A stretch of 25,917 nt of DNA from Saccoglossus kowalevskii (lineage: Eukaryota; Hemichordata; Enteropneusta; Harrimaniidae). Positions within the stretch are counted from its first letter, which is position 1. Each line of letters opens with the position of its first letter. The DNA lies in NCBI RefSeq assembly GCF_000003605.2, contig NW_003122907.1, forward strand, positions 483,340 through 509,256. Direction: 5' to 3'. Under the pieces are notes generated by a model. It saw nothing but the letters and a program-made list of their open reading frames with translations, was not told the origin of the DNA and did no database searches. Of this stretch, positions 1,183 to 25,917 are shown in pieces. The position numbers and the translations under genes are program-made.

Positions 1183-1345
1183 CGGCAAACAGCGGAAACC
1201 TGCATGGTGTGATAGAATATTATGGAAAGTTAACAAAGATAGAATTAGACATGTGGACCTAAACATGGAACTTGTCACTTATAATAGTATTCAAAAAGTA
1301 CAATGGAGTGATCACTTACCAGTCTACGCTGATTTTATTCTTGGT
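1183..1345 (+). CDS. INPP5K-like: Phosphatase exon: end of catalytic domain
   Basis: The first base completes a codon from the previous exon (phase 2), followed by 54 codons from GKQRKPAWCDRILW to WSDHLPVYADFILG. PAWxDRILW and SDHxPV are the conserved substrate-phosphate and catalytic motifs of Mg-dependent 5-phosphatases. The variable stretch between them is short, at about 29 residues. The acceptor is tttctttcacag and the donor is GGT|GTAAGT, leaving phase 0. Confidence 0.93.
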
Positions 1346-3911
1346 GTAAGTCTGTTCATACATGTAGTACCTTTTTTGTTTCTTTGGTTGCTAGAACAAG
1401 AACTATGCCCATGATAGTGGTATCGATCTCTAAAAAGATCTGAAAAATTGATGACATACCCATATAAATATGTATGTGATACTTTAAAAACAAAACTCTT
1501 AATTTTTCTCTTAGATCTTTATATTTTTGACATAATTATGATATACCGGTACAAAAGAAAGTACCAAATGAATATACGCAAGTTAAAATGTTAGGATATA
1601 CCAGCCATGGTTATAGAAATAGCAACTAGGCAGCTGGAAATACTCTTAAAAAAGCCTGTATCCTCTGCTTTCAAGATACTTAACTCAAGTTAGCATTTTT
1701 GTGATCTTTTTAACACATTTAGTTAAAGAGTACAGACACCAAACCATTGATCAAGTTTCATTCCGTTAAAGACTGGAAACAATATCAGGAAAATGAGTGT
1801 ATATATATGGTGGATATTGACACTAGTACAAGTGCATGGGACTGGATTGCTCTCTATAAAGTGAGTACTCTGATATGGTATTTGTATACAATCAATCTAT
1901 CACCACTGAACGCAGAACCCAATTTTTGGATTTTGATGTTATTTATTCATTTATTTATTGCGACCCTTTTTGACCAAGGGCTCACTAAAACAAAGTGCTG
2001 CAAATTAAAACAACTTAAAGTTCTTTCTATTTTTCATAGCATCAGTGACAACATTTTTGACAGTCTCATTGATTTATTTACACAATTTGGTATTGTAATT
2101 ATCGGTGATATCAACTTGTAATTGTTCCACATTTTGTCATTTCCTCGATTTCAGGTTGGTTTCCGACATCCTAAAGACTATATCACTTATGTATGGGCAA
2201 TAAAAGATGGAGAAAACATGGAGCACGGTTGTCATGTTGTATTTGAACCAGTTTATTTACCTACTGACCTGACCTCTCGGTACATGTTGGGGTATTATAG
2301 CAGCCTGAGTGATAACTTACTTGGTTTGAGTAAACCATTCCAGGTAAATACAACTGAGATATTTAATTGTACTTAGATAATCTGTGTATAATATTCATAT
2401 TTGTTAAACCAGAATATGAAACTCTTACCCATGATATGCTACTTCTAATCACTTTAACCATAGATCTATCATCAAATTTCAATGAAACTTGGTACATGGA
2501 TGCTCTAGGACAATACACATACCTGTTTAGTTTTGGTGTAAATCTGTGCATATTAATTACCTAATTTGCATAATAATTCATAGTTTTAATCACATTTCAA
2601 TGAAAGTTGGTACATAGATAATCTGTGCCATTGACTTAATTAGTTTTAAATTAACATCTGTGCATATTAATTACCCAATTTGCATAGTAATTAGTGTTCA
2701 GCTTTTCTATCAATATTTACATCAATAAGTACTTATCTTATTTCAATGAATCTTGGTACATACATACTCGAAGACATTGCAACAATCTAAGTAGTTTTGA
2801 GTTCATATACATCCATAATAATTAATTTGCATAATAATTTACTATTCATATTATAATGAAACTTGGTAAATATATGCCCTGGAACAATACACAGATCTAA
2901 TTAGTTTGGGATTGAAATCTATCGCTTAATTGCATGATAATTACTAATTGTTTTTCAAAAAACAATTATTGCATTTCAATAAGACTTGGTATATACATAT
3001 AAGTGTCTGGGAACAATGCTAAAGACCTGATTAGTTTTGGATTTGAAATTTGAGCATACTAATTGCATAATGTACATATCACATTTCATTGAGAAGATTT
3101 AGACTTGAATTTATTTAGAGGTGCTCTGGAATTAATTAAACTGAAAACCACAGATCAAATGTATTTTCTTTAAGTATTATAAACTTCAATAATGTGGGTC
3201 ACAGTGTTTCACATAGTGCATCTCAAATAGCTGACAAATTAGTTGCCAAGCTTCTTGTTTTGAAGGCAAAATAATTTTTAATACATCTGAAATACTCTCA
3301 GCACAGTAGAGTTCTTTCTAAGCTTTCTTTGATCTTATATTTTCTTTATGTTTGCTGTCAAAACACTGTTCTTATTTTATATATATATCATGCTCTGTTT
3401 GAAAATGCATTGCACGCCAAATGGTAATAATCTTCAGTAATGCTGAATTTTTTTTCATCTAAATTATTATTTCAAGAACTTGGGGTAGAAATTTTATTTC
3501 AAGCACCACAGTCGCCACACTGTGTTATGTTCATGTACAACAAATGTAAAATATGAAAACAAATATAATCAACCTTTTCACCACCAGACTTTCTCACCCA
3601 AATTATTCTGCACGTTTTTTCTTATATTCTTTATTTCTGGAAATGAACCCTAATTTTGGAGCCAACAGACAAAATTTGAGTGAATTTTCGATTTTTACTC
3701 AAATAAATTGGCTATTTTTGCCCCAATCTTCTGAAGCAAAGTGCAGACTATAAACAGGACTTTTTTGTGATGAAAAGAGGAAACTGGTAGTGAAAAAGTT
3801 AAATAATCATAAAGAGTTCCTAATGTTGTAGCCGGTGGGCACTTAGTTATGCACTGTTTATTTCAGATTTTTCCAGCAAGCCCAACACGAAATATGGATC
3901 TAATGACATGA
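1183..3911 (+). CDS. INPP5K-like: Inositol polyphosphate 5-phosphatase with SKICH domain (3' part of gene)
   Basis: Four exons join as 1183-1345, 1723-1860, 2155-2343 and 3867-3911 (535 nt; 177 residues and a TGA stop). All boundaries are GT-AG and the frame is continuous. The product removes the 5-phosphate of phosphoinositides such as PI(4,5)P2 and PI(3,4,5)P3 in the cytosol and at membranes. The visible catalytic remnant has PAWCDRILW and WSDHLPV, the last two signature motifs of the family, with the Asp-Arg and Asp-His active-site pairs. A SKICH domain follows (WDWIALYKVGFRHPKDYITY ... LGYYSS ... SKPFQ), which in INPP5K and INPP5J directs membrane targeting. The C-terminus is short, as in INPP5K. 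INPP5J also has this order, so K versus J (or their common invertebrate ancestor) is unresolved. The N-terminal and most catalytic exons are off the left edge. CALCOCO1 and TAX1BP1 also have SKICH domains but no phosphatase motifs, so they are excluded. Confidence 0.93.
1346..1722 (+). other. Intron of the phosphatase gene
   Basis: A GT-AG intron of 377 bases, phase 0. It ends in tttttaacacatttag. I see no other feature inside it. Confidence 0.85.
1723..1860 (+). CDS. INPP5K-like: Phosphatase exon: start of SKICH domain
   Basis: 46 codons with phase 0 at both ends. They run from LKSTDTKPLIKF to WDWIALYK. The SWDWIGLYK-like ending is the hallmark of the first SKICH strands in INPP5K and INPP5J. 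The donor is AAA|GTGAGT. A later AG at 1730 could serve as acceptor, but the AG at 1722 follows the pyrimidine tract and keeps the expected linker. Confidence 0.9.
2155..2343 (+). CDS. INPP5K-like: Phosphatase exon: rest of SKICH domain
   Basis: 63 codons with phase 0 at both ends. The exon begins VGFRHPKDYITYVWA and ends LGYYSS(...)LLGLSKPFQ. VGFR.. .DY..YVW and the LGYYS strand match the second half of SKICH domains. The acceptor is ttcctcgatttcag and the donor is CAG|GTAAAT. Confidence 0.93.
2344..3866 (+). other. Last intron of the phosphatase gene
   Basis: A GT-AG intron of 1523 bases that holds the tandem repeat at 2476-3110. A short open stretch at 3553-3753 has no splice context or recognisable content and is taken as chance. 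Confidence 0.75.
2476..3110 (+). repeat. Diverged tandem repeat, unit about 110-146 bp
   Basis: Units start with a line close to atttcaatgaaacttggta at 2476, 2594, 2740, 2850 and 2973, with a truncated copy at 3083, so spacings are 118, 146, 110, 123 and 110. Each full unit then carries tagttt about 55-65 bases on and closes with a block like aatttgcataataatt. Units 1-3 contain the POU octamer ATTTGCAT, and units 4-5 have TAATTGCAT. The copies are clearly diverged, so the array is old. A still weaker copy may precede it from about 2355. Confidence 0.85.
3867..3911 (+). CDS. INPP5K-like: Phosphatase terminal coding exon
   Basis: 14 codons plus TGA, read in phase 0 after SKPFQ: IFPASPTRNMDLMT. 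The acceptor is gtttatttcag. INPP5K- and INPP5J-type proteins end their SKICH domain with a PFQI-like strand followed by a short tail, which matches the Ile created here. Because the exon is so short, support comes from frame, acceptor strength and the expected PFQI join. Confidence 0.75.
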   Translation: MFPASPTRNMDLMT

Positions 3912-4430
3912 ACATGAAAGACTTAAGAATCTGACAGAAGTTTCATTGTAAATATGGGAACAAATAATATTTATATATATATTATTGAAATGCTTAAATG
4001 TTGTCAAGCCTGCTGAATAGACCTTTCAGTGAAAAAGGTGAAGTCCACAGGATACCTGTCACCCAGTCAATAGACCTGTCACTGTAATTACCAGCATGCT
4101 ACGGATACTCAACAGATATGTTAAAATTCATACACTTATCTTGTTAGTTGTAACAAGATTCTTCTGTGATGTTGAAATGTCATCAATGGGCGGGCATTGA
4201 TAATGCATTATTTGTTTTATATGGTGATGCATCACTAGCGAGGATGACTTTTGAAAGTTGTATTCTGCTAGTGTCATTTGGTATTTTTTTGGTTTTGGTA
4301 TGTATATGAATGGGCATGAATACTATAGTGTGATTGGTTAAAAGAACATTTTTATTGACTCATGAATTGTGTCGCATGTTATTTGTGTCTGTGTGCATAA
4401 TAGCATTTAAAATAAATCTGCATCTGGAAT
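3912..4430 (+). promoter_or_regulatory. Phosphatase 3' UTR with AATAAA signal
   Basis: This is non-coding sequence after the TGA. The first canonical AATAAA is at 4411-4416, about 500 bases after the stop, and is the likely poly(A) signal. Further AATAAA matches occur around 4840-4860 in an AATAAATAAA run, so a longer 3' UTR is possible. Confidence 0.45.
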
Positions 4431-6637
4431 TAAAACAATTACAAACTTGCTTCATATAAAACTTGTATATGAAATGCGATTTCTTCAAGCTAGCGCCAAG
4501 CTTGGTTTTAAAAGGAGATTTTTTAATAATTCTTTATTTTAACGTTGACAAAGTATATTTTTTTGTTTTAAATATGGTACACTTTTTAACATTGGGTTTG
4601 TGTTTTTAAATTAATTGTAATTATGAAATACTACTTTTTTGGGTATCTGGTTTGTATATATTTTATGATTTATTTATGACTGTAATTTGCTTTGAACTTT
4701 TGGGATTATTATACTGCCATAGTGTTGTTCTTTGTGATATTAAACCTTAAATATTTTAACTACTTATTCTCAGAATGAAGCATTAATGTATTTTAATATT
4801 TCACAGAAAATTGGTTTGGAAATATAAATTAGCCTTCAAATAAATAAATTGATTTCAAATAAATGAAAGTGATTTTATAGACATATATCATATATTTCAT
4901 TTTGAGTTTACAATTTGTAAGGTTGTCATTCCCTCAGTTGGTTGTGGTCTTGGGGAAAATCATTTGATATTCTGAATTCGTACAGGAAAATACTAAGTGT
5001 CAGTGATCAATTCGGATTCTCCTTTGGTTATTTGTTTAAAATATTGCGGGCCAGTCAGAGCACAGGTGAAAATGGCTAACATTTTCCACAATTTGTGCCA
5101 TTAAATATTTCACCTAATAACCCCAAGATCCCAATAACACGTTAGGAACAATATCAGAATGCAACCTGATTTGAATGAAGAAACAAGATATACTACAGCA
5201 AATTCATCTTTACATCTACACAAATAGTCTGTGAATAAAAATTGACATCTGCTTTAATGTATCTCTAATTTTGAATGATGGGCAAGAACTATAACAAATG
5301 CTTTTTTGATGGAATGATGGAATGAGATAATAATGGTTTCCAGACACTTTAAACAGCACTATATGCACATGTTCATCATTCACTGTTTATTACGAAGTGT
5401 GATTTTAAATAGAAATCCCAGCAGATAATTGAAGTAATATATAATTATCCATTAAAAACTGTTATTGATAAAAAGTGACAGCATTATTAAACATGTTATA
5501 TGTGTATTTAGGTGTGTGTTGTAATGAACTATGGTGTACAATAAATACTAGCATATCAATCAAAATAAATGTAGTATATTGCTTATTTGAAAGATGATAT
5601 TTTTCAATTATTATGCTTGAGTGAATAATGTGCTTTATATTCAATTATCTCAAAATGCATGCAAGTAAAGATGATTTTTACACAAACTAAAGTCTGCAAA
5701 CTATACTGGATATATGTACTTTAAAGTCTGTAAACATTATCTTTTAATTTGGTTCCCATTTGTGTTGATATGTCTGAGGCAATTACTAAATACATTGATC
5801 GTTCACTGAAAAAATAACTTTCATATTATGCATATACGTTCATTTTATGATCGATCCTACTCGGTACTGCAGTGTCATACAATTGAAAACCACTGCTGTT
5901 TTTGGACATTTTTTAGGCAATTTCATTCACCCACACTGTGACCTACTTTTCATAATCTAATTTGATCACAATTTGTTGGTGATCTTATGAAGAAATATGA
6001 AATAATAGACTGACTAGTCATTATTATGAAATCTTGTGTTTCTGAGACGTCTCGTTTATGTTTGGCGTTTATGTTAGTGATATATATTTATACTTGCTTT
6101 TACAGCATGGAACTACAACACATGTGTTACATAGCCTTTTATATAAGATTGTTCAAATAATTTACAAAGATCGTACTAGGTTATGATTTGTTGAGGCAAA
6201 AGAAGATCACATTAAGTATGACATTACTTTTCAATTGGAAAAAATCGTGCTTTCTTGATATTTATAGAAATATTTCACTCCCAATCCATTCGCAACCTGG
6301 AGTAAGTACGCATTTTAAGGTATTAAAACGAGAAGATCATCCCACTTCCAAAGTGTCGAGGATGTGCTTGTTATCAGCACATTACAAGCGTGTTGATTAC
6401 GTGAACTGAACCTTTGAGAATATTGAGTATTCGCTCTGCCGTGACGTGACTGTCATAGTTTTATTGCTTGTAAGTGGCGCAACACCTTTATTTCGAACAA
6501 CACAGAAAAATACCGGTCTGCTCAGATGTATTCGTATCTACCTGCACAGTTATCTGTCAACACAGACAAAATCATTGCAATGCTTCCTGGAGAATTAATT
6601 AATTGCAAAACTAGTTCTGGACATTAAGATGATCAAT
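4431..6637. other. Intergenic, nothing recognised
   Basis: AT-rich sequence without open frames that have coding character. The short open frames at 5462-5644 (-) and 6188-6409 (+) have no recognisable domain or consistent splice context. Confidence 0.6.
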
Positions 6638-6666
6638 CCATCAATGTGTGTTCGACACATTGATGG
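6638..6666. repeat. Perfect 12-bp hairpin
   Basis: ccatcaatgtgt at 6638-6649 is exactly complementary to acacattgatgg at 6655-6666, with a 5-base loop gttcg. A second small palindrome, gggagaacttctccc, lies at 6686-6700. The function is unknown and no neighbouring gene is evident. Confidence 0.7.
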
Positions 6667-7587
6667 GCGCAACTTATTTACACTCGGGAGAACTTCTCCC
6701 ACGCCACAGGAAGTTGTTTCTACGACGATGGGCTTTTCACCTATGTGCATGTACATTGAGTGATGAGTAAAACAACTCTTGACTATTCATTATTATTATG
6801 CTTACTGACGTTATGTTCTCAGAATGAAGACATTGTATTTGCTTCTGAATAACTTGATTCTGTCTGTTATATCTTGACAGTATATTATTTAAAACAACAG
6901 GACAACACATTCAACTATATAAACGCATTGAGAATTTAACTAATGTTGACACATACAGACATTGACTGATCTGCTTTAGTGATAACTTGAAGATCCTAAT
7001 ATTTTGTTGGAGTGTATTCAAACTGGTGTATATAAAATATAATGTAAACGTGAGTCGGTCTGAGCTGATATAAGTGTATCCCAATATTCAACATCATTAC
7101 GAAATCAATCATATCACTACCCAGACCCTGTGCCCGAAACTTGCGGCATTCAAGTGTCCCTTTAACTCAATGTTTGCTTCAGCAAATAAGGCATCCTTCC
7201 AAAAATATAACACTGTTTTTTTACAACTATATTTGGGAATTACTATCATGTTGTTTTTTCTTCTTCTGGTAATAGTATCAATCAAATGTGGATTTCAATT
7301 CTAAATAACTTGTCCGGATCATTGTACTGTCATTACAATGTTTATCTTACAAAGTTTTTTCCCATATGCATGACCTCGCAATCAACATTACTTAATGTAT
7401 ACATCTTAAACGCGGTGCCTTTCTAGTTCTCTCTCCACGTGGCACCGGACTAATAATTTTCTGTGCATTAAATCATTTTAAATATGTAAATAAATTAATT
7501 TAAATAAATGTATAAGTAATCAATCAAATTGTCACCATTCGCAATGAATCTTCGCGCACCAGTTTCAATGACCATGGAACTGTTTAG

Positions 7588-7684
7588 GACAAAAACAAAG
7601 ATGGCCGTTGCCTTATTACTAAGAACCAAGCGACATTTACAACGTTAGAATTTGCATTGGCCTGTTCATATCTCAAACAAACAG
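7588..7684 (+). other. Possible coding exon of an unrecognised gene
   Basis: A segment bounded by AG (ctgtttag) and GT (aaacag|gtaatt) is open in the frame GAC AAA AAC..., giving 32 codons such as DKNKDGRCLITKNQ and TLEFALACSYLKQTG, and ends in phase 1. Composition is protein-like, but a 33-codon opening is easily random, and I do not recognise the sequence. An alternative reading is a promoter-proximal aagatggccg motif of YY1 type at 7599. Confidence 0.25.
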
Positions 7685-7922
7685 GTAATTTTTTAAAAAA
7701 ATGTATTGTCATTTTTTAAAACTACTGTATTAATACTGAACGAATATATTGAGTGTATTGCAAACATGTTTGTATTTGAGATTCGATGGATGAACCATGT
7801 TCCAATGAGTATATAACTACTGTCATCGCAATGATGGAAAGAACATCAAATCAGCTAATTGAAAAAACAAACATACAACTGCGCATAAAAACACACGATT
7901 TGATTCGGGTCACACCATTATC
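7685..7922. other. Intergenic, nothing recognised
   Basis: AT-rich sequence without repeats or motifs that I can support. Confidence 0.5.
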
Positions 7923-8354
7923 ATGAGGATGTATGATACTGTGAGGGAAACACAGCCGGCTTCAACCGAAATATTCTTCCAGTTTCAGATAAAATATAGA
8001 GGAATGTATCGACAATGTTACTCTGTGAATTTTTACTCATATTTAGACCTGGGAATAAATGTGAAAGACGAAACATTACCATACAAATACCGTCATCTTT
8101 CGGGTTTCTTTTCATATTGGTTACAGTCGTCGATGGCTTGCTTCTTTTTAAAAAACTCCACACAATCAAGAGTTGCTAGCAAACGCCGGCGACTGGTAAG
8201 ATTTGAAGCCATTATTAATGTTGTATCTGGACATATTTTTGACACTTGGCTATTGACCAAAATGTTGACCCATCCAACTAGTCTGGTACCACGAACAACA
8301 GAATGGAATGTTGATATACTCATTTATTTATTTTGTTTTCAAATGTTTAATTAA
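7923..8354 (+). CDS. Hypothetical 143-codon open frame
   Basis: The longest open frame in the intergenic region runs ATG to TAA. The product has Tyr- and Arg-rich stretches (IKYRGMYRQCY) and a basic patch (RVASKRRRL), with no signal peptide or known domain. Inside it, 8127-8195 is bounded by a strong acceptor (ttcatattggttacag) and donor (CTG|GTAAGA) in the same frame. Any real product may therefore be that 23-codon exon rather than the whole frame. The opposite strand is also open here in two frames, so the stop-poor composition may be the cause. Not recognised. Confidence 0.22.
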   Translation: MRMYDTVRETQPASTEIFFQFQIKYRGMYRQCYSVNFYSYLDLGINVKDETLPYKYRHLSGFFSYWLQSSMACFFLKNSTQSRVASKRRRLVRFEAIINVVSGHIFDTWLLTKMLTHPTSLVPRTTEWNVDILIYLFCFQMFN

Positions 8355-9088
8355 TACTATGTACACGATATATACATGGCATATTAATAATGTTCCGTAC
8401 CAAATTTATCTCAATTATGTCCCTCCCACAATGTAGCTCGCCTGTCTCCTCTTTAGAATGTTGTGACCCAAAATCATATTGTGAGTTCCAATGTGTAGCT
8501 GTATGGTCAGCCAATTAGGCGGCAATATTGCTGATTAGATGTTGCATCCATTATTGCAATGGCAGTTGTACGCTTTAAGCGCTTCTCAATCAATTGCAGG
8601 ACTCTATGTACACAAAATGTCCTGTATTCGAGTTTTACTCGTTGACTCTAATCAAATTTTCGATGTTCTCATAAATTTTCTTTGTAATTATATATAGATT
8701 AAGTGAACGCAAATAAGCATTACAATTTTTTATGTGCTAAGGAGAAGGCTGGATTCGAACAAAGATACGCTGCCCGCTCATCTGGAATTCGATCATGATG
8801 GACATTAGATTTTGGGCATTACGATGTTCATTATCAATATGCAGTTCTTGGGTATAGGGTCCATGCACAGTCATCTGGCGCACACGTGATAATAAAATAA
8901 ATGCGATATTTATTACTATATATGATCCGCCATCTTGAATGCAGCATAAAACTAAATAAAAGACAAGTTGTAAAACGCGTTTTTAAGATTCCTACAAATC
9001 AGGGCAAAAATACCAATCTTTCACAGAAATACGATACATTGGGGGTAATATTAAGCCAACCGATAACAAATGTGTGTGGAGAAATCGC
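8355..9088. other. Intergenic with a tRNA-like B-box relic
   Basis: No gene is seen. On the - strand 8760-8751 reads GTTCGAATCC, a perfect RNA polymerase III B-box core, preceded by gagcgggcagcgtatcttt. No paired T-stem or clear A-box accompanies it, so at most this is a decayed tRNA-derived SINE. A CCGCCATCTTG motif of YY1 type lies at 8927-8937. Confidence 0.3.
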
Positions 9089-9277
9089 TTAATTACGAAC
9101 ACCTAATTACACGAAGAACATAGAACACTTTTCTGGGGTATTTGAAACCAAAAATTGTCCTTCCAGCTCAGAAGCCAATCAGCAACGACCATACAGTTAG
9201 ATGACAATTTCGGTTTCAAATACCCCGGGAAAGTGTTCTATGTTCATTGTGTAATTAGGTGTAATTTGTGTAATTAA
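9089..9277. mobile_element. Foldback element or MITE with about 60-bp inverted repeats
   Basis: The left arm (9099-9159, starting acacctaattacacgaag) and the right arm (9203-9262, reverse complement starting acacctaattacacaatg) match over about 60 bases with only about 4 mismatches and one indel. They are separated by a 43-base loop. Outside the arms both flanks read TTAATTAC-like sequence, and TTAA occurs at 9089-9092 and 9274-9277, possibly a target duplication or the outer end of the repeat. The element has no open frame. High arm similarity suggests a young non-autonomous element, or selection on the hairpin. Confidence 0.8.
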
Positions 9278-9997
9278 ATTGTTCTACGATAAAATATCTC
9301 ATCGGGGGCATGCACCCTATTGAATGTTCGTGCAGAATTGTTAACAAAATTCACTCAATGCCTTAACAAGTGTGATACGTCTATAGATCTTAATCATCAG
9401 TTGTTTTCTTATGAAGGCATAATCAACTTTAACCTATACCTGTACACATCAATACACAATAACAGTAACAGAATAGAACTCTTAGTTTCCAATATATAAA
9501 ACATATGCATTCGATGTTACTTAAAATATATGTCGAAATAATGTCAGAACATGTGGTAGAGCAGAAGTGGGACTTTAGTGTGCTAATTATTGATATAATT
9601 GTTGAATATTTCCGCTTGGATGAAAGATTCACGACACTAACAAAACTAACTTCTGCACCAATTATTATGACTAACACTGATGTGTCATGATATGGCATAT
9701 GATAGTTACATGCATGTACACTCACATAGAAGAAAGTTATATTATACTAATTGTCACACGCAACGTAATATTACCGTATTTGGTATAGTACAGGTGTGAT
9801 GGTTCAAATACCAAAATGGCAACAGTAATAGGAAGACTTTCTCGGCGGCGATGATAAAATACGAACACGGAGCCAACAGATGAGGTTTCAACTGGTACTG
9901 GTATTATTATACTCTGCAAACATCAAGTACAATAACGCGGTAAAACTCCACTACTCCAATGATTAAACTCCAATACAATTCAACGAGATCTCCGATC
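9278..9997. other. Intergenic, downstream of the possible leftward promoter
   Basis: If the promoter at 9998-10212 is active, its transcript would run leftwards through this stretch. I could not read a heat-shock protein or any other known product here on either strand. Short open frames at 9505-9690 (+), 9429-9725 (-) and 9737-9919 (-) are unrecognised. Confidence 0.5.
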
Positions 9998-15257: not shown

Positions 15258-15301
15258 CTAAGTGTCTTTGTCCGCAAGGAACTCGTCGATATCAATAAAC
15301 T
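15258..15301 (-). CDS. Receptor exon 12: C-terminal tail
   Basis: After a strong pyrimidine tract (gtttttttgtttatttactcag) the 44-nt exon completes a split GAG codon and adds FIDIDEFLADKDT before TAG. The acidic 14-residue end (residues 1675-1688) follows SYVYSNP of the previous exon. It carries no type I PDZ ligand and no Homer site. Phase 1 of donor and acceptor agree. Confidence 0.72.
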
Positions 15302-15477
15302 CTGAGTAAATAAACAAAAAAACGGACACCAAAGATTCAAAAATAAAGTTGAGATATTATTCCGTCCTAGACAAACTTAGAACAAATATTAGTTGTGTAT
15401 GATCTAATAAAATAAATGTGTTTTATAATCACTAAATAATAACGTCAATTCACCAACACAAATTAAGAGTTATTTTC

Positions 15478-15508
<31 letters not shown>

Positions 15509-18500
15509 GCTTCCAATAAGCTGCGATGCTGTGTATACACACAGTACGGGTACATACCTGGATTGCTATAGACGTACGATTTCCCCATATCATTCCCTGT
15601 AGTTCCATCATCTTCATCCTTTGCACGGGGAGTAGTCAATGCATTTATTTTAGGCATAAACATGAGAGCCAGAATAACGAAGGCGTTTGTGGTGATGCCA
15701 ACACACAGGGCGGGGTGTTGGTATTCTTCATCTGCAAGCATATATATGAGGATCCAAGCAAGCATAATGAAAATAGAGACAATACAGCAGGACAGGATGT
15801 ATGCCCCTTCATGTAGAAGTTCAGAATACTTCCTTGCAGGAACTGCGCACCATAATGTGACTAATAGTAGTATAAAAACATAGACTAATGACGTCACCAG
15901 CCATTTATTGTCATAACTACACATCCAGACCAGCTCATATGGCGGTTTCGTGTTCGTTTCCCGTATCTCATGTTCAACAGCGGGTGGATCCAAAATCAAC
16001 CATTCACCAGTAATAACCAGCTGAACTGTCAACAAAGCCAGCATTAGAAACGTCTGGCTCCATGGACTGACAAAGGCAATTTTGGTGTTTATTTCACCTT
16101 TCCCACATACACGTAGTATGCGAATAATCTTGCAAAGAAGAGCACTCCATATTATAGCATGAAAGAAACTAAGTCCAAAGCGCTGTGCCCCACACACGCT
16201 GATGGTAGGGGAAAGCATGAAGGCAAGGTTTAAAATAAATAGTAAAGTAATTCCCAGAAGTAAAAAATAGCTCAAACTGGATGAAGCTCCTTTGACGACA
16301 GGGTGGCGGAATTCAATGAGAAAATAAATAAATATAACAAAACAGAAAAGCATTCCGATTGCACAGACAGCAAGTATAATTACAGCCCATATAGTGTCTC
16401 CATAAAATTCTAACGGCGGACTATCTGGAACGACGAGTGGTGAAACACCTTGCTTATAACATTCAGTGCAGAACTTTGGACATCTTGATCTGATATATGG
16501 TTGCCGGTCCCCAGAAAAATCATAGTACTGCACCAGACTGTCATTTATTACCAACTCATTATCAATCCATTCACCCACCTGGAAGTGATTACATGTAAAT
16601 AAATAAAAAAAAAATTAAAATAAATAAATAAATTAAATTTAAGGTGTATGTATGATATTTTTTCATAAAGTAAACTTAACATTGTACACAACTGTGCATG
16701 TAGTGCACAATCTCAAGATTGTTTTGAACTATAGTCATACAGCAACTTTTATTGAGATTTTGTAACTTGATGTGATTTAGTGATGAAACAATCAAATATA
16801 TGTATTTATTTGAACGGCATTGTTCTATGCCATTTTGACGTTTAAAATGGCAACGTCGCTAGAGCGCAATTTATTCACCAGAAAATAGTAGTTTTAATTT
16901 GGGCAAAACATGTATTGTAAGTTGTGCCTTTCCCTTTGGTTTCATAATATGCGACAAGGCTCCCATTGTATATAATGCTCACTCACCCATCTGTAATTTC
17001 CAGCCATCTCATTCTCATCCACCACGTAGTTCATTATGGTATATCCGCCCTCTCCTGCCTCTCGGGCAAATGAGAAAGGTCGTCCGCCAGCAGCTTCTTC
17101 AATGTTGACTTCCTCTATTGCCACAAACACTTCCAGTGGAGTTGACTCAAAAAAATTTTGGCAAAGTTTCAAATCAGGACATTTATTAACCAGAAGTCTG
17201 TGTAGCCCAGCAGCAGTAGCATAAACTGCATTTATTGCAAATGATGAAAGGGCACTATGAAGCCTTGAATCCTCCACATCAGTAAGACTTTCCTGCCCAT
17301 CACATGTTCCTTTACTGCACTCAAAAATCGACTCCCACAGGTAATTGAACCAAGGATTTCTAGAATTATCCGACGGCGTCAAGCTTCTAAAATATGTTTC
17401 AAATAAAGGGAGTGGAACTTGAAGAGGAATGATTGTAAATGCACCTTTAGTTTCATCCAAGAGGCCTGCAACAACATCACTATATATACCCCAGGCATCT
17501 GGGGCCACCCATGTCAAATGGTATGGCTGATCTGGCATTGGTCTTGCAGACGTTTTTGCTGTCTTCATCAATTCACGCGTGTCATGGTGATTTGTAAACA
17601 AAACAACAACATTTGATCCTTTATCTCCTCCCATTGTTAGAAGATCTGTCATGACTGATAAGTAATTACCAGATGTTGCTGCTACAGGAATTGTCAATTC
17701 TATTGACACACAGATTCCAGCATCATTAGCCTTCTTGATGAATGCTTCCATCCCACTGTTTCCATACACTGTGTCTGATTTGACAGTCGATACATATATC
17801 CAGCCATGCTTCATTAATAGGCTAACCATCACATCAGCTTGTCGATCATCTGAGGGCACAGTGCGTAAAAAGTTTGGATACTTTTCACGATCTTCCAACT
17901 CATAACTGGTGGAACCAAAGCTGACCTGAATGGAAGAGAGAGATGAGTGTGTGTAAAAATCAAATAACTGATAAATACAAATTCATGTGATTATTATTAA
18001 AAAAATTAAATTAAACAAACTCATAACATACTTGTGTTTTCTGCAATGGTCCAGTTATCCGTAACATCTCCATGGAAACGTCACTTATTAATGCTCCAAT
18101 TGTTGCCATAATATCTCCGGGTCTACCAACACCAAAGTTTTGAGCACCACTCAAAGTCAGCATTGCCTCAGTGGACGCACGTAGGGGGCTTGAACATGTG
18201 TCTAGGATGGTTGTACCAAGTTTAATATTTGGCAATATGTCCTCATTATTGTTCACCTGGTCTAAGGCGTATAATATTGCCTCTACATTGACCACCTGGT
18301 CAACAGACACATCTCCACACAGCAGTGGGTTGTCATCGGCATTGCTAATTCCAAACATTACAGGAATGTGAATATCTCCATCTACATGAGAATACATTAT
18401 ACTACTATCCTTGCATTCAGAACATGCACCGATGCACTGTGTTGGCATGGATTGGTCAGGATAAATAATCACTCCTCCTGGTCCATACAGCGTCACTGGT

Positions 18501-21500
18501 TCGGGATAACCAAATGTTAGATTATCCTTGCTCCAACTGCCAACCTAAATTCAAGAATAGAAAGATAACGATGGGTCACATACACAGAGACTTATAACCG
18601 ATATGCTGCATGGAGTGCATTGATTGATCAAAAAGTGCATTTCCAACATTAAGGCGGGTTAATTCAATGGTAAAAACACTTATTAGATAAATGTTAAAGA
18701 TTAATGCCACTTAAACTAGAATCCTTATTTTAGTACAAAATCAGAGAAGAAGTACCTGATTTATTTGTAAAGTGAAAAACTAAATAAGGATGTTTTCGTT
18801 GTTGTGTTGCATCACTTAGTATCAGTATCTGTTTGATATTTCTATATTTTATGGCAAATGAAATTCGACCTTCAACAATACTATTTGTATATACCACATA
18901 TAAATGATATTGTGAATACATATATCCTGATGAGTGAGGTACTTGTACCTTACGAAACAATGCTGTCGAGTTTCAATATTCATATAGTTGTGTATTAATT
19001 CCTCCATTTCCGTATTTATCCGCTCTACATATACTTTGTATTGAGCACTTTTGTTTTGGAATAATCGACTCCCACATCTAGACCAACCAACCAACCAAAT
19101 ACCAATAATAATTTAACTACAACACACTTTTTCCAAATAAAAAAACATTGTACACATAAGATACTTACCAGTACATTATTGAGAACATCAGTATCACCAA
19201 TTAGTTGTGAATTATAAATATTATAAAGTGGAACTCCATCACCATTGTCATCAAATTCAAAGGTTTTCATGGAAGCTGCACTTTCAAAAGTAACACTTCT
19301 TATTTTTTCAAGAAGCTCATCGGGAGTGGACATCACCAGGGCATTGCACATTTCAGTCTTAGGTGGACATTTCTCGCCATAAAGTTCATCGATGCCTCTG
19401 GCTATTGCAGTCACAGAGTCCATTATGTCCGCAATATTATCAGCATCACCATCCGAGGCCAATAATTCTTGGTTAACTGAAATGAAAGGTACACACGTCA
19501 GAATATGGAAATAATATTCCCAGCTACCATCTTTGAACAAAAGTCCAAGTATATAAGGACACAAACAAAGGACTGACTTCAATTCACAAGAACAAACCAA
19601 AACAATAGACATGTCAAATTAGTTGGAGAAAGATATGTGGATGCATGAAGGTGTTTCAGGAAGAGTGAGCAGATCCTGCTTCACATGTAACGCCTACCAT
19701 ATACTATTTAAATAATTCATATTTAAATTTCATATGAAACCTGAGGTCTACATCGGACAAGTGACATTCATGCCATCTGAGATCATGTTTGTAACAGTGT
19801 TATTTTAATCAACCAAATAAAGCAAATCAATCTAGACATCAAAATTCGGTGGTCTGGGATTCCAGAAAATCTGCTCTCCAATTTTAGAGTACGACTTTTT
19901 TTAAGAAGATGGTAAATTATAAGAAGAGCCTCATCCACTCAATTAGCTTACATATATCCAAGCTTGCGATAATTGTGATCATAGTTGATTTTAAAACTAG
20001 AGATTTCTACTTGCCTTCACAGGCTGTCGTCTCTGTAGAATATTCTCCTGGTAGATAGCATTGAAAGCGCTTCATCCAGTACTCTCGGAACCATGGGTTG
20101 CGTCTGTTTGAATCAGGTTTAAGACTCTTAAAATAGTTTTGAAAGTCTGGTATAAGTGGGTCATATGGGACAACCATTAATGTACCTGTAAGACCAAAGG
20201 TGACAGCTATATGCTAGTGTACTGTTATAGGTAATGTAAAGATATGTTATGATGGAGGAAGAACCATGCTGGATACTATAACTATGATGTTGCAATACTG
20301 CACCAGGTTATCCTCCTGAAAAAAACCTCTATCCATGAGTCCTGATAGCATAGTATGGTTTAGCATTATTATACTTGTTTGGATATTCTCGATAAACCTG
20401 ATCCCCAATAGTCAATTTATGTTGTGTTGACTTACAGACATGTTATTATTATTCGAATAGCGTGGTTCAAGCTAAGCCCACCTTGGACCAGAAAGTAATT
20501 TGAAATGTTCTAAATACTATTCTCAAAACTCTAGAGGTGCTACAGACATTTCTACTAGTGTGGACCATCATTGTAATAATTTTAATTATATGCATATGGT
20601 ATATACATCGCTGATGTTTGTAACACATATAATTGCATTAAGTAACACCTATACATAAATTATCACTTCGTATGATCTACATCTCATTTTAGAATCATTA
20701 GAACTTTGTACAGTTCAGAAATCTAATTCAACAGAATCGTGAAATCGAATTTCTAAGAACCTCCTAAGATAAAGTAGCCTTTGAGTGGTTACGCCATGTT
20801 TTTTTCGTTATAGTGGAAGGTGTTCAGTGTAAGTAACTTTAAATGAGTGGACAAGTTACCAACAATATAAAGATTGTGACACTCAATGAAAGAGTGATAT
20901 TGTAAATATGTGTAATAACGTGCAGTTAATCATACTCCTGAGTAAAGCTAATCTCACCAGCAGCCACATCCGGAAACCCCATAAAAGCTTCGTGGAAATC
21001 TTGGGGAACAACAAGTGTGAAGTTCTTCTCGAGTTTGTTATCAGATAGTTTTCCCACCAATTGTCGACTGTCAGTGTTTGATGTGACGGCCAACAAACCC
21101 TTGGCATCAGTTCTTGACCTTATTGCATTGATTATGACATTCATCTCGTTGTCGCTATGTCCGTCTTTGATCACCAAAGAATTGGCGATACATATACCAA
21201 CCTAGATGGGATCGAAGCAAGAGTATGTCACAAAAATCCCTCCTTGGAAATTTTTAGAGGAATGTACGGATGGTATCATTTCTGGGGAAAAACGATGTTC
21301 ACGGTACATTGTGTAGTTGTCTTAACAACTCCTCTTTACAGATTAAATATATCATCTTTAGTTATTTTTAGATGCCGCAGGGATAATTTTTTCGTGCAGA
21401 TTTGGCTATTGCAACAGAAGGACTGTGTAGTGTTAGTAGGTAATTCGAGTATTTTATAACATTAGAAAGTGTTATGTATTCCAGACATTTCTACGAGGTC

Positions 21501-24500
21501 CAACAGCATCAGTGTTCTTTGTTTTTGTCGAATGGGATGGTTAACCTACCTCTTTAGCGAAGATTTTGATGGCTACAAAGCCTTCATGACCAATCGGAGT
21601 GTCAGAGTAGATAACCTGTATGTACCACCACTCCAAAGCCACTGCCATATCTACCATCGCTTTAGCTTGATAATGAATGGGGGCGCCAGTGCTGAATGTG
21701 TTCGGGAGACGTTTCATGCTTGTCGGCAGGGCGGGCGGAATATTGTAACTAATCTGTGGGAGCATGACAGCACTGACGGCACCATCCATAACACCAGTCA
21801 GCTCATTGATAGTCGTACCAACGACACCCATTATATATTGCGTCTCATCCAGTTCACCCGTTCTTTTACCGCCCACCCCTCTGCTAAAATCGGCTGATCC
21901 AAGTAATTCGACTATTTTTCTCCCGACTGTAGCGTCATTGTTACAGCTATCCATTCCAATCACACCCAGGGTGATGCCAGGCAGAATGTTCGGGTCGTTA
22001 TTGATGTTATCGACAGCGTACATCATTGCTTCTAGTCTTTTTACGCCGTCAAAGCTAATATCTCCGCATGTGTCGGGGGTGCTGCTGTTGTCGTGCACTG
22101 AAAACATCCCTCCGATAATAATATGACCAGTGATTGATGCGAACTGTTTCTTTACTTTACACTGGATATCAGTACATGGCACAGTGCACACGGATTTTAC
22201 GTTTGTTCCAGTCTGCAGTAGTCCATTCTCCCAGAAACTTACAAGATTAGTGTTGAGGTTAACAACAGGACCAAGCTGAAAACACGAATCAAAATGATCC
22301 TTTTTAATGATTCATACTTAAAGTAAACGAATATGGACACATGTGTATATACGTAACGTTGTGTGAGATGGTCAGGAAATTGTGACAAACATCATGATTT
22401 AATTGAAAAAGTGCATTTATATAACTTCGTAAACTTTAGATAACACATGGCACTGGATCATGGACATTACTGTTAAGTACCCACATTACCAAAAACACAT
22501 GGGATATTTAATATTTCTGAATTATTAGTTCTCGTTTCGTTTCTGTGTTGTTTAAGAATAACCATATGATTATGAAGCTACAAGCTTCAATTCATTGATA
22601 GTATATTGAACCGATGCATATTTGGGAGAGATACACTTCGTGACAAATTCGGTTTCATAAAACATGAATGAATCAACATTGGGTTACATGAAACGTTTAC
22701 GCTGGTAAATGATCATTCAGTTACGTGAAAATTTAATAAATAAACACTAGAATGCGTAACTAACAAGTAGATGTATAGAAATATGTACTCACATCCGCGA
22801 GATGGTATCCGCTGTTACCATCTTCTTTGTAATTCAGAACGACAACATCCGGGTTTTCAAGGAATCCATCTTGGTCAAATGATATTACCATATTGCCATA
22901 ACCAGTGAAATGGACATTCTTCAGATAGCTAGCAATACCCGTATGTTCAATGTTCGCCAGGGCGTAGCACATTCCGGGGCTTCCGCATAAATCAATATGA
23001 GCTTGCGTCAGAGCCACGACTAACGCTCTTACTGAGTTCATGACCTCGGCGACTCCGCGAGTCAAAGCAACGTTTGCTTGTTGGCTATTCTGTGTCTCGC
23101 TACAATCCTCGGCATACACGCTACCGCCATCTAAATTACAGCTGTACTTGGTTTGCCAGTACTCGGAGAACCAGGGATTGCTCACATTATCGTGAGTGTC
23201 CGGAGTGAGCCCTTGAAAGTACATTTTAAATTCTTCAACTTCAGGGGAACGTTGGCCAATCCCCAGCGCGCCACGCGTGACGTCACTGTAACTCTTAAAC
23301 GAGTGGACCAATCCAATTGTCGGTATGATCCATTCGAGGTCCTTCAGTTGAGTGGAGCCAACATCTTCGATAGCCTTAAAAAGATTATTCTGTTCAGCAT
23401 CGTCTAAAAGAACTAGGACACCTGTAAAAACGCAAGACGAACCTCCAATATGTTAATATTTGATAGAAATAACACAGAACAAACGTTTTTTTTTTTACGA
23501 ATTAGACCTGAATAAATTAGATTGAAGTTGGCGTGGTTGACTCCTGGGCTTGTATAAATTTTATTTTCTCTGCCACATTTCAAATGAATAGTTCAATGAT
23601 TCGAATAGCCATTAATGTTAGGAATGCATGCCAAGGTATGGGAAACACTAAAGCGATAGCGATTAACATGAAACGTAAGTCATAAGGCAATACGTTACTG
23701 ACATTGGGGTCACACCATCAAGTTCTAAAATTGCATTGAATTATTTACGATAGCTTATGATCTAATGTTCACGATTGTTTCACCATTTGTCACCTGCTCG
23801 TTTGCATAAATAAATCAATGATCAAAGTAATCATTCATACGAGCTAGTTTGTTATCTATAAATGAAATAGTCTTCTTTCACCACCCATACCTTTCAGTTC
23901 AGTCGGCGTCAAATCAATCAGCAACTGAGTGTAATCTGTCTGTCCCGATTCCACCTGTAGGAAGCGAGCCACGCACACGTCATGCAGATCCAACTCAGCC
24001 TCGATTTGATCTTTCATTGGTGCCACGTTACTGTTTGCTACTATCGCAATGTACGTCCAGCCGAGTTTCTTCAGTAGTTGCATTGTGTACTTTTATGAGA
24101 GATAAAAACGAAGATTCGATGACAATAATATGCTAATCTTACTAGATATTAAGACGCAAGCAGAAACAATTTAAAGTATTTTCAGCATGCGAAACAATCA
24201 TATGATATTGTTTTTATAGAAATGCTTTTTTCAACAGCAAAACATACACATATTGCCTGTTTAATTTCAACAATTTAGTCAGAGAGGACGCGTACAACTG
24301 GTAAGTATTTAGTACGATTCGTTGTCTTCTGAATTAATGTTATGATGAATTTTATTGATGCGAGTACGTCTTTTGATAGCCACGTGTAACACCCAATATT
24401 TGCATATTACCTTTTCAGTCTACCCATGATGCTATACAAATCATCGTAACTTTAAAATTAAAGGGTGGTGGTCGTCGCGCCGCGCATGCGCCATATTAAC

Positions 24501-25916
24501 AAAGATTTCACGATGAGTACAAAAAAGAAGACACTACTAAGGCATTAATAATATTAATAATGAATCTATAGAGTTAAAGTCGGTATTCAGTGCACATCGC
24601 GGCCAGAAAAATACTTTTGCTTGGCACATTGTGAGCACATTGGGTTGTGGGAAAATCACTGCCTATCAACACAAATATTGCACATGCGTGATGACGACTA
24701 CTGCAAAGACTAACGCCTTTTTAATACAGAATGAATCACACTATACAATACCAATAGTAGTTGAAGATTATCAAATTTTTACTCGACCTGATTTTCAAAA
24801 TTCTGGTTAATATCAACATGTTTTTTTCTTCGTAACGTTTTATTGTATGTATGGTAGTAATTATAGTTGTCATGACATCTGAAATCTGTCACATATTTAC
24901 CGTACCTGCATGTTGAGTTGGGGTCTCATTCCAGTGGTGACCGTTGGCATGAACACATCTTGCATAGTGCTGATGACAGAGACGGTTGTTCCATACAGTC
25001 TCGACGTCGCCGAGCTTGGCTCTTCGCCTGGTACGTACGTAAACGTCGGCTCAGTTGCTATGACGCCTGCAATACAGAAGGAAAGCGTAGCGTGAGTGTA
25101 ACTATATTACTAGCCGTGCTCAGTACAATGTTATACTTTGTATTGGCAATGGTTTGCAAATAATTGTTTCATTTAAAAACGCGTGAAATGTGATTAATGG
25201 TGCGTTATGAACGAGAACGTTTTGTTTTAAATAGTTTAGTTTGGTACTGCATATTGATGACCAAATTGGATAATGATTTATTGTGAATTGAAAATGTTGC
25301 TGTTGTGGCATACAGAATAGTACTCGTTTAATAAAACGCGTTATAGTACAGTACATTGGGATAGTGTAGGTTTCAAAACTAGCAGCGCGCATGCGTATTG
25401 GAGAATTTCAGTGTTACATTAAGCGAATACTCAGTCGTGAGCTGCAAGAACAACATTTAATTTGCAATACATCGTAATGTTATGTATTCTTTAAACAAAC
25501 ATTACCAAACAACAATATTACAAATTACCTGCTCACTGGCATTGCATCTTTAATATACCTTGCGCATCGTTGATTAGTATCTAAATCGATTAAGCCTCAC
25601 ACAGTTATTGGTAAGTTTTGGAATCATTTCGCCATTACTACTCAGGTTGAAAAATAACATTTTGCACTTTGATTGTAAAGACGCATTATTGTTTAGTGTT
25701 ATCACGTTCTGAAATCTATAACAATTATTTTGACAGCGTACAAATTATCATGAAAAAATGAAAATAATGGATAACACAGTGCACCTTGAATTACTAGTAC
25801 GTACCTGTAACCATGAGCGCATGCGCAGTCGCGCAGTACCTATTTACATCAAACGCGGAGCCATATTGTGCATTGAAGATATACCGCAATCCAGTTTGCA
25901 TATCAGTGTGCAACAA
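15258..25916 (-). CDS. Class C GPCR with three tandem Venus flytrap domains (5' end off window)
   Basis: Twelve exons: 25916-25805, 25066-24906, 24089-23891, 23421-22793, 22275-21550, 21201-20958, 20185-20015, 19476-19169, 18544-18032, 17925-16987, 16578-15558 and 15301-15258. They total 5067 nt and are in frame throughout, giving 1688 residues (numbered here from the window edge) plus TAG. Order: flytrap 1 (to about 380, N-terminus missing), Cys linker (397-406), flytrap 2 (about 410-860), Cys linker (887-894), flytrap 3 (about 900-1345), Cys linker (1367-1374), seven helices (about 1397-1645) and a short acidic tail. Each flytrap has the NPWF..YW...F.C block and the paired Cys (CGSPGMC, CPPKTEMC, CPDLKLC) of mGluR-type domains. 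By homology it is a plasma-membrane receptor for a small ligand. Introns run 106-816 bases, all GT-AG except one GC-AG. The helices are closest to mGluRs. The ligand is unknown. Confidence 0.88.
15480..15508. repeat. (AT)n microsatellite inside receptor intron 11
   Basis: About 14 AT units just downstream of the exon 11 donor. If intron 11 were retained, translation would run into it and add a YIYIYIYIY tail ending at a stop at 15463. Confidence 0.9.
15558..16578 (-). CDS. Receptor exon 11: linker and all seven helices
   Basis: 340 codons, phase 0 in and phase 1 out (CCAG|GTATGT). The exon opens with VGEWIDNEL, the last flytrap strand (VGTW in mGluRs), then C1367, C1371 and C1374, and reaches helix 1 after about 20 residues. 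The mGluR cysteine-rich domain is thus absent. Helices lie near 1397-1422, 1435-1456, 1467-1490, 1506-1530, 1561-1582, 1593-1616 and 1623-1645. Conserved class C points: C1463 (top of helix 3) with C1554 (loop 2), K1484 in helix 3, FVSPWSQ and LDPP around helix 4, E1587 in loop 3, and FMPK in helix 7. Odd points: helix 7 reads PKIN where mGluRs have PKxY, and the WLAF of helix 6 reads MLAW. Confidence 0.95.
16987..17925 (-). CDS. Receptor exon 10: most of flytrap 3
   Basis: 313 codons (residues 1022-1334), phase 0 at both ends. It carries VSFGSTS, FLRTVPSDDRQ, HGWIYVSTVKSDTVYGNSG, WVAPDAWGIY, NPWFNYLWESIFEC and CPDLKLC, in the order and spacing of mGluR lobes 1 and 2. Aligned by eye with mGluR1, T1027, D1047, Y1075 and D1164 fall on T188, D208, Y236 and D318, the residues that hold the amino-acid backbone. 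The position of K409 is hydrophobic. The exon ends GNYRW|, directly before VGEW. Confidence 0.95.
18032..18544 (-). CDS. Receptor exon 9: end of flytrap 2, linker, start of flytrap 3
   Basis: 171 codons (851-1021), phase 0 at both ends. It begins VGSWSKDNLTF, the closing strand of flytrap 2. C887, C891 and C894 follow (C-x3-C-x2-C), then a new flytrap start: VDGDIHIPVMFGI, LLCGDVSVDQVVNVEAILYA, ILPNIKLG and LDTC. One exon thus carries the tail of one flytrap and the head of the next, which proves that they belong to one protein if the exon is used as read. The R78 position of mGluR1 is Asn here. S1004 falls on S165. The loop that holds the inter-subunit cysteine of mGluRs is short and has no Cys. 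Donor CAA|GTATGT. Confidence 0.94.
19169..19476 (-). CDS. Receptor exon 8: end of flytrap 2
   Basis: Residues from the split Val 748 to 850: VNQELLASDGDADNIADIMD, CPPKTEMCNAL, TPDELLEKIRSVTFESAAS, FEFDDNGDGVPLYNIYN and TDVLNNVL|. It matches the last helix-strand part of mGluR lobe 1 (LCPGHVGLCDAM ... FDEKGDAPGRYDIMN). Acceptor ttcatttcag, phase 1; donor CTG|GTAAGT, phase 0, leading into VGSW. Reading on past the donor gives only intron sequence. Confidence 0.93.
20015..20185 (-). CDS. Receptor exon 7: flytrap 2, NPWF block; GC donor
   Basis: 171 nt, phase 1 in and out: GTLMVVPYDPLIPDFQNYF, SLKPDSNRRNPWFREYWMKR and FQCYLPGEYSTETTACE. NRRNPWFREYWMKRFQC is almost the mGluR consensus. The exon is too short for a simple open-frame search, but acceptor (tttggtcttacag), phase and homology all agree. 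The donor is GAAG|GCAAGT, so the following intron is GC-AG. Confidence 0.92.
20958..21201 (-). CDS. Receptor exon 6: lobe 2 of flytrap 2
   Basis: 244 nt, phase 0 in and phase 1 out (GCTG|GTGAGA). It reads VGICIANSLVIKDGHSDNEM ... SRTDAKGLLAVTSNTDSRQL ... NFTLVVPQDF ... PDVAAG. It corresponds to mGluR1 GLCIAHSDKI ... RVVVCFC ... SLIGSDGW. The acid that grips the ligand amine in mGluRs (D318) is Gln here (VVPQDF). Confidence 0.92.
21550..22275 (-). CDS. Receptor exon 5: end of flytrap 1, linker, start of flytrap 2
   Basis: 242 codons (368-609), phase 0 at both ends. It starts LGPVVNLNTNLVSFWENG (the VGxW-strand position), then C397, C401 and C406 (C-x3-C-x4-C), then flytrap 2: ITGHIIIGGMFSVHDN, DTCGDISFDGVKRLEAMMYA, NNDPNILPGITLG, MDSC, LPQISYNIPP, YQAKAMVDMAVALEWWYIQV. 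Like exon 9 it links two flytraps. The R78 position of mGluR1 is kept as Arg (KRLEAM), but the S165, T188, D208 and Y236 positions are replaced (N, P, I, I). Acceptor aaaacacg..ttttcag on the - strand; donor GAG|GTAGGT. Confidence 0.94.
22793..23421 (-). CDS. Receptor exon 4: lobe 2 and end of flytrap 1
   Basis: 629 nt, phase 1 in (cgtttttacag) and phase 0 out (GCGGAT|GTGAGT). It reads VLVLLDDAEQNNLFKAIEDV, DLEWIIPTIGLVHSF, NPWFSEYWQTKYSC, DLCGSPGMCYAL, YLKNVHFTGYGNMVISFDQD, VVVLNYKEDGNSGYHLAD. The mGluR D318 position is Thr (WIIPTIG). The exon ends at the same structural point as exons 8 and 10. Confidence 0.94.
23891..24089 (-). CDS. Receptor exon 3: hinge and lobe 2 start of flytrap 1
   Basis: 199 nt, phase 0 in and phase 1 out (AAAG|GTATGG). 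It reads YTMQLLKKLGWTYIAIVANS, then DQIEAELDLHDVCVARFLQV and LLIDLTPTELKG. It is equivalent to mGluR1 [20 protein letters not shown] ... GLCIAHS. The Y236 position is not aromatic (SNVAPM). The acceptor is tttttatctctcataaaag. The preceding VVPSD segment found in flytrap 3 is missing. Confidence 0.9.
24090..25804 (-). other. Receptor introns 1 and 2 with CpG palindromes
   Basis: Introns of 738 (25804-25067) and 816 bases (24905-24090). Both contain gcgcatgcg(c/t) palindromes (24483-24492 and 25387-25396) resembling NRF-1 sites, in otherwise AT-rich DNA. No further exon is seen. Other receptor introns (23890-23422, 22792-22276, 21549-21202, 20957-20186, 20014-19477, 19168-18545, 18031-17926, 16986-16579, 15557-15302) show nothing beyond the (AT)n in the last. 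Confidence 0.6.
24906..25066 (-). CDS. Receptor exon 2: lobe 1 of flytrap 1
   Basis: 161 nt, phase 1 in (cttctgtattgcag) and phase 0 out (ATGCAG|GTACG). It reads VIATEPTFTYVPGEEPSS, then RLYGTTVSVISTMQDVFMPT and VTTGMRPQLNMQ. It occupies the place of IAGVIGPGSSSVAIQVQN ... IPQIAYSATS of mGluR1, but similarity is weak. The call rests on splice sites, phases that fit both neighbours, and position. Confidence 0.72.
25805..25916 (-). CDS. Receptor exon 1 (partial): lobe 1 of flytrap 1
   Basis: An open frame from the window edge to a donor (ACAG|GTACGT), phase 1, which fits exon 2. It reads DMQTGLRYIFNAQYGSAFDV and NRYCATAHALMVTG, in the place of the TLG...DSC...A...L helix of flytraps. No acceptor is visible before the edge, so the exon continues outside, as do the signal peptide and the first strand of flytrap 1. 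The N-terminal extent, including possible further flytraps, is unknown. Confidence 0.6.
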
Positions 25917-25917
25917 T

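Follow-up and report, generated by a model that had tools for sequence, protein, structure and literature searches.

A predicted class C receptor gene with three Venus flytrap domains and one seven-helix domain in the hemichordate Saccoglossus kowalevskii

The stretch of DNA analysed here (the window) comprises 25,917 nucleotides of the genome of Saccoglossus kowalevskii (contig NW_003122907.1, here C1549). Its minus strand carries, from 25917 to 15258, a gene (gene a) whose predicted product is a class C G protein-coupled receptor (GPCR) with three Venus flytrap domains (VFT1, VFT2 and VFT3) ahead of a single seven-transmembrane domain (7TM). Predicted splicing joins 12 exons in one frame of 1688 codons, ending with a TAG stop at 15258; the same model had been put forward in an earlier note on this DNA and was rebuilt unchanged. 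A second gene which appears to repeat the order of flytraps, gene b, lies on contig C1853, and the modules of the two genes are distinguished below as VFT1a, VFT1b and so on. The exons of gene a are as follows, with the basis for each in brackets.

25805-25917, minus strand: first visible coding exon, part of the N-lobe of VFT1, open at the window edge (reading frame; donor CAG/GTACGTAC)
24906-25066, minus strand: VFT1 exon, N-lobe (its 3' intron, NMQ/YTMQLL, is in phase 0 and common to VFT1 of gene b)
23891-24089, minus strand: VFT1 exon (reading frame; PF01094 at 4.1e-18 over VFT1)
22793-23421, minus strand: VFT1 exon, C-lobe with the NPWF block (reading frame, Pfam and solved-structure comparison)
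21550-22275, minus strand: junction exon with the end of VFT1, the linker CTVPCTDIQC (22188-22159) and the start of VFT2 (one open frame of six; PF01094 on both sides)
20958-21201, minus strand: VFT2 exon (reading frame and Pfam; both flanking introns common to VFT2 of gene b)
20015-20185, minus strand: VFT2 exon with the NPWF block and the GC-AG donor (reading frame)
19169-19476, minus strand: VFT2 exon, C-lobe (reading frame, Pfam and solved-structure comparison)
18032-18544, minus strand: junction exon with the end of VFT2, the linker CIGACSEC (18436-18413) and the start of VFT3 (one open frame of six; PF01094 on both sides)
16987-17925, minus strand: VFT3 exon with four of the five amino-acid pocket residues, the first being in the preceding exon (PF01094 at 5.7e-49; mGlu4 at 9.9e-60)
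15558-16578, minus strand: end of VFT3, the linker CPKFCTEC (16482-16459), the seven helices (about 16413-15646) and the start of the tail (PF00003, mGlu2 match and hydropathy)
15258-15301, minus strand: last coding exon, with a short cytoplasmic tail and the TAG stop (reading frame)

Ten of the 11 introns are of the GT-AG type and one is GC-AG, and their phases fit throughout. The GC donor (AAG/GCAAGT, after 20015) belongs to an intron which in gene b begins with GT; a GT donor four bases further, with the exon from 20185 ending at 20011, was discarded because it breaks the frame, which the GC donor at 20015 restores. An (AT)n run occupies approximately 15482-15508 in the last intron. VFT1 is cut at the window edge, a point which the earlier note did not make, and the missing first exon or exons, with the signal peptide if there is one, are presumably located in the adjoining 30.5 kb (C1549:509257-539788), which reads N; a further 1.3 kb reads N on the opposite side of the window.

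Pfam was run on four hand-cut segments of the predicted protein and recognized ANF_receptor (PF01094) in VFT1 (4.1e-18; profile positions 97-352, the start missing), VFT2 (3e-36; 2-351) and VFT3 (5.7e-49; 4-350), and 7tm_3 (PF00003) in the 7TM (6.8e-46; 157.4 bits against a cut-off of 33.5; 5-251). These are exactly the three flytrap matches and one 7TM match which the earlier note had asked of the joined protein, and they bear out its reading of three flytrap-linker units before one 7TM. With PF00003 above its cut-off and PF01094 on the same predicted chain, the product is classed among the class C GPCRs. The flytraps are diverged repeats of one another, VFT2 and VFT3 sharing 28–31% identity (E 2.5e-36 in a self-comparison).

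The two junction exons speak for a single gene. In each, one flytrap finishes, a linker with three cysteines follows and another flytrap begins, all in the only open frame, and the other five frames contain 6–22 stops in the exon 22275-21550 and 5–15 in that at 18544-18032; the earlier note was thus right to cite them against three separate genes. No 19-residue window in the linkers (residues 390–430, 870–915 and 1340–1400) has a mean hydropathy above 0.77, and all stretches of the chain exceeding 1.6 fall in residues 1390–1645, which is the 7TM. Because the hydropathy of the linkers is low, there is no signal peptide or membrane helix at the points where separate genes would need them, and reading frame and hydropathy together place no signal peptide, membrane helix or stop in the linker stretches. 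Nor does the 7TM belong to VFT1 or VFT2, since its exon also holds the last strand of VFT3 and a linker. The repeated unit of gene a is a flytrap followed by a short three-cysteine linker, the latter standing at the position of the cysteine-rich domain in the metabotropic glutamate receptors (mGluRs).

That cysteine-rich domain is missing, a feature not remarked upon in the earlier note. Pfam gave no NCD3G match in the four segments at E values up to 1, and the genome search gave none on the window contig or on C1853. As a control, the genome was found to hold eight PF00003 matches covering at least 230 positions and 13 NCD3G matches; an NCD3G lies within about 1 kb upstream of seven of the eight full-length 7TMs (the one on C2303 being below the cut-off), and the exception is the 7TM of gene a. 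Among solved structures, to which the comparisons of relatedness were limited, the nearest to VFT1 is mGlu5 (4.1e-19), to VFT2 mGlu6 (5.5e-53), to VFT3 mGlu4 (9.9e-60), and to the 7TM mGlu2 (1.3e-28). The 7TM scores 103 bits against mGlu2, 34 against CaSR and 30.5 (E 1.8e-6) against GABA-B1.

A PF01094 profile search of the host genome (572 Mb, 4830 contigs) returned at least 117 matches, of which several lie on one strand of C1853 and form gene b. Its order is a signal-peptide-like start, VFT1, VFT2, a linker and VFT3, and the frame runs unbroken from VFT2b into VFT3b.

C1853:33447-33189: VFT1b exon, starting MAHLILVLSLVWCLTEAQ, signal-peptide-like by eye
C1853:31116-30988, 30459-30293 and 28379-27543: VFT1b exons
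C1853:21283-20690, 19191-18939, 17506-17336 and 16097-15796: VFT2b exons
C1853:15563-15383: junction exon with the end of VFT2b, the linker SECIGPCDDC and the first strand of VFT3b
C1853:13273-12009: VFT3b exon

Other flytrap matches were noted in the same genome. At C3160:163241-163582 (minus strand) there is a match to the first junction exon (query 16–126, 36% identity, E 1.5e-11) which starts inside the part holding the end of VFT1 and the linker; it is possibly a third gene of the three-flytrap build, possibly a chance extension. Contigs C1740, C1297 and C2725 carry many matches, scattered along their length, which cover roughly the first half of PF01094; most of these lie in open frames of about 230–300 amino acids, and the genome search with PF00003 found no 7tm_3 on any of the three contigs. 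A different flytrap family may have expanded greatly here.

By alignment column and phase, five introns are common to genes a and b: one in VFT1, before YTMQLL in gene a and AIVEVL in gene b (column 260, phase 0); the other four are in VFT2 (column 298, phase 0; column 447, phase 1; column 512, phase 1; column 645, phase 0). Neither VFT2 nor VFT3 of either gene has an intron at column 260, and none interrupts VFT1 or VFT3 of either gene at columns 298, 447 and 512; VFT3a does have an intron at column 645, which is therefore not private to VFT2. A sixth shared intron, that following the exon 25805-25917 of gene a, stands before VIATEP in gene a and MLADRE in gene b and is of phase 1 in both, as judged by eye in a region where VFT1a aligns poorly. 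Since the genes share introns of which some are private to VFT1 and some to VFT2, the triple build would therefore predate the split between them, and from these positions genes a and b appear to have inherited an ancestor already holding distinct VFT1 and VFT2. Given a second gene which appears to repeat the flytrap order, the three-flytrap design is probably real and old.

Identities between corresponding modules are low (24% for VFT1a and VFT1b, the latter partial; 28% for VFT2; 31% for VFT3), compared with 48% between mGlu2 and mGlu4. The module tree groups VFT2a with VFT2b (support 87/90) and, weakly, VFT3a with VFT3b (731 of 1000 bootstraps). The three flytraps of one gene formed a clade in none of 1000 bootstraps for either gene, an arrangement which the approximately unbiased (AU) test did not reject at 0.05 (p 0.13 for gene a and 0.06 for gene b). 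Protein trees were abandoned as proof of the order of events, the modules being too diverged, and the introns carry that argument instead. A previous tree, which used a VFT1b two exons short and with a few intronic residues and a VFT2b one exon short, had given 82/80 for VFT1a with VFT1b and 601 of 1000 for all six modules; it is superseded.

The ligand pockets of the three flytraps differ. We take the contacts to the amino-acid backbone in mGluRs to be S145, T168, D188, Y216 and D295 of mGlu2, and those to the glutamate side chain to be R61 and K377. VFT3a and VFT3b keep all five backbone contacts under three aligner settings. At the same positions VFT2a has N, P, I, I and Q (none of five kept), VFT2b N, G, N, F and D (one), and VFT1b S, T, D, A and E (three), while VFT1a reads T, T, G, A and I in one alignment and keeps from none to two of the five depending on the aligner, the last two letters (A and I) being stable. 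The comparison set comprised nine further flytrap sequences from this genome, each taken as one or two exons. All five residues are kept in L017, L018 and L022, and all four of those covered in L037x and L023; a single difference is found among the five in L024, L020 and L021, and among the four covered in L025. At the side-chain positions VFT3a has N and L, VFT3b has Q and N, and L017, the genome's own mGluR, keeps both contacts. According to the available portion of PMC6307864, class IV mGluRs likewise keep the backbone contacts and have Arg78 and Lys409 of mGlu1 replaced, and a ligand other than glutamate was suggested for them.

With regard to dimerization, the inter-chain disulphide of mGluRs sits in the loop which leads from the DSC helix region to the following strand. 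A cysteine occurs in this loop in VFT1a (NRYCATAH) and VFT1b (GSVCPNSK), and VFT2 and VFT3 of either gene have none there. A separate alignment with the incomplete VFT1b and VFT2b put that of VFT1a in the column of the mGlu2 cysteine. That the VFT1 loop cysteine joins dimers is suggestive only. The structural cysteine which we take to be equivalent to C234 of mGlu2 is present in all six modules. The earlier note had proposed that such a receptor might sense several ligands, or that its distal flytraps might contact a dimer mate or another partner: an amino-acid pocket is retained in VFT3 alone, and the loop cysteine of VFT1 favours dimer contacts without proving them.

We lean, by a little, towards the following mechanism as a whole. 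Gene a would encode a single class C GPCR of mGluR descent, arranged as VFT1-linker-VFT2-linker-VFT3-linker-7TM. VFT1 would act as a dimer clamp, its loop cysteine linking two receptor chains, and VFT3 would be the sensor, closing around a free amino acid which is not glutamate. The short linker, its third cysteine perhaps tied by a disulphide to the C234 equivalent of VFT3, would carry this movement to the 7TM and the G protein. VFT2 and the pocket of VFT1 would have lost the usual mode of amino-acid binding, and VFT2, repurposed (and with it the pocket of VFT1), might serve as a spacer, partner-contact or differently tuned sensor module modulating the receptor. More tentatively still, and with rather less confidence than in the mechanism, genes a and b might be the founders of an old, separate class C branch in which a tripled flytrap-linker unit divides the labour among a disulphide-linked dimer head (VFT1), a pocket repurposed for a different ligand or partner (VFT2), and an amino-acid switch (VFT3) driving the 7TM without a cysteine-rich domain.

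Several observations weigh against this interpretation. The exon joins of gene a are predictions from genomic sequence alone, its 5' end falls within a stretch of N, and the ligand, the dimerization and the G protein coupling are likewise deduced from sequence. VFT1a aligns badly in its N-lobe, where the letters at S145, T168 and D188 vary with the aligner, and its loop cysteine fell in the column of the mGlu2 cysteine in none of three aligner settings (that of VFT1b did so in two of three); the flytrap exons L023 and L024 also lack the loop cysteine, and therefore its loss need not mean a changed role. In the module tree VFT1a joins VFT1b in only 258 of 1000 bootstraps, and all six modules come together in 161 of 1000 (AU p 0.33, not rejected), a weak grouping by which internal duplication is not shown to be the source of the repeats. 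In gene b no linker exon was found between VFT1b and VFT2b, where 2.55 kb reads N, so that this join is inferred, and no PF00003 match was found on C1853, where the expected place of the 7TM (positions 1-9831) reads N.

The exon joins bear directly on the proposal that two or three adjacent genes, specifying soluble or truncated flytrap proteins and one ordinary receptor, were merely joined on paper. Introns drawn from the genome only would permit this, and an mGluR-type flytrap protein without a 7TM has been described in S. mansoni (available portion of PMC3206071). Nevertheless two exons each lead from one flytrap across a linker into another within a single open frame, the linkers contain neither signal peptide nor stop, the intron phases fit along the whole of gene a, and gene b has the second junction in an exon of its own. 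We have dropped separate genes on the strength of the junction exons and gene b, and consider them very improbable; conversely, the junction exons, the phases, Pfam and gene b give good support to the reading of gene a as one gene with three flytraps and one 7TM, which we hold with high confidence.

Two further alternatives accept the single gene and turn on the pockets. Alternative starts or splicing might yield a receptor of VFT3 and 7TM as the main product and the three-flytrap form as a minor one, and since only VFT3 keeps the usual pocket, such a one-flytrap form would be a plausible receptor. In two genes that have diverged deeply, however, VFT1 and VFT2 have stayed open and their splice sites usable, and the linker before VFT3 has no signal-peptide-like stretch, which makes us regard this arrangement as improbable. 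Somewhat less doubtful, although still unlikely, is a coincidence detector in which all three flytraps bind ligands and two or three molecules are read together. The folds of VFT1 and VFT2 are recognized, their structural cysteine is conserved, and VFT2a and VFT2b both have N at S145 with the rest of the pocket differing; on the other hand, the pockets of VFT1 and VFT2 are unlike those of the aligned mGluRs and differ between the genes, as expected for lost binding.

To our knowledge a class C receptor has a single flytrap in each chain, and in accounts of mGluRs the cysteine-rich domain is a rigid lever from flytrap to 7TM. A natural receptor with three flytraps and no more than a three-cysteine linker would put the one-flytrap rule and the lever account to the test. 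It suggests that an ectodomain can be lengthened by repeating a flytrap-linker unit, and it may be a natural example of dimer contact and ligand sensing being assigned to separate flytraps, possibly a guide for the design of stacked biosensors. If the branch with divided labour is true, one chain would integrate more than one signal.

Elsewhere in the window, positions 1121-2376 of the plus strand hold exons resembling an inositol polyphosphate 5-phosphatase (Pfam Exo_endo_phos2, 6.2e-12; SKICH, 2.8e-13). On the mitochondrial contig C4830 (stretch L054, 6243-6879), between cox2 and the contig end, there are three copies of one open frame at a spacing of about 191 bases, probably a non-coding tandem repeat. 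This contig (17,037 bp) carries cox1 in inverted orientation and nad2 ahead of nad1, all genes but cox1 having been assigned by eye. The nine ATA codons in the aligned portion of COX1 face five Ile, two Val, one Leu and one Met of the best solved COX1 (7o37_a), and AAA is used 46 times in six genes. For S. kowalevskii, PMC3121625 describes a COX1 inversion, a transposition of ND1 or ND2, AUA read as Ile and AAA read as Lys; the agreement is close and points to this species or a near relative.

The mGluRs are the nearest solved relatives of every flytrap and of the 7TM of gene a, which differs from them in having three flytraps instead of one and in being without the nine-cysteine domain. GABA-B receptors are class C members with one flytrap and no cysteine-rich domain. 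Gene a resembles them in having no NCD3G between flytrap and 7TM; its sequence, however, is mGluR-like and its 7TM is not of the GABA-B type. In ionotropic glutamate receptors two clamshells are stacked: the ligand binds to the proximal one, and the distal one has a part in assembly and modulation. Here the likeness is one of working principle only, the output being an ion channel and not a 7TM, and no membership is claimed. Class IV mGluRs match VFT3 in keeping the backbone contacts while the two glutamate side-chain contacts are absent (available portion of PMC6307864). Among the literature matches listed there was no 7TM receptor with more than one flytrap, although the S. kowalevskii GPCR survey (Krishnan 2013) might mention these genes. 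The Venus kinase receptors of invertebrates have one flytrap module and a tyrosine kinase where gene a has its 7TM; the phrase "two VFT" is absent from PMC3703292. Tandem flytraps on one signalling chain are found in BvgS-type bacterial sensor kinases (available portion of PMC4352136), which differ from gene a in being histidine kinases of bacteria with an unrelated output domain.

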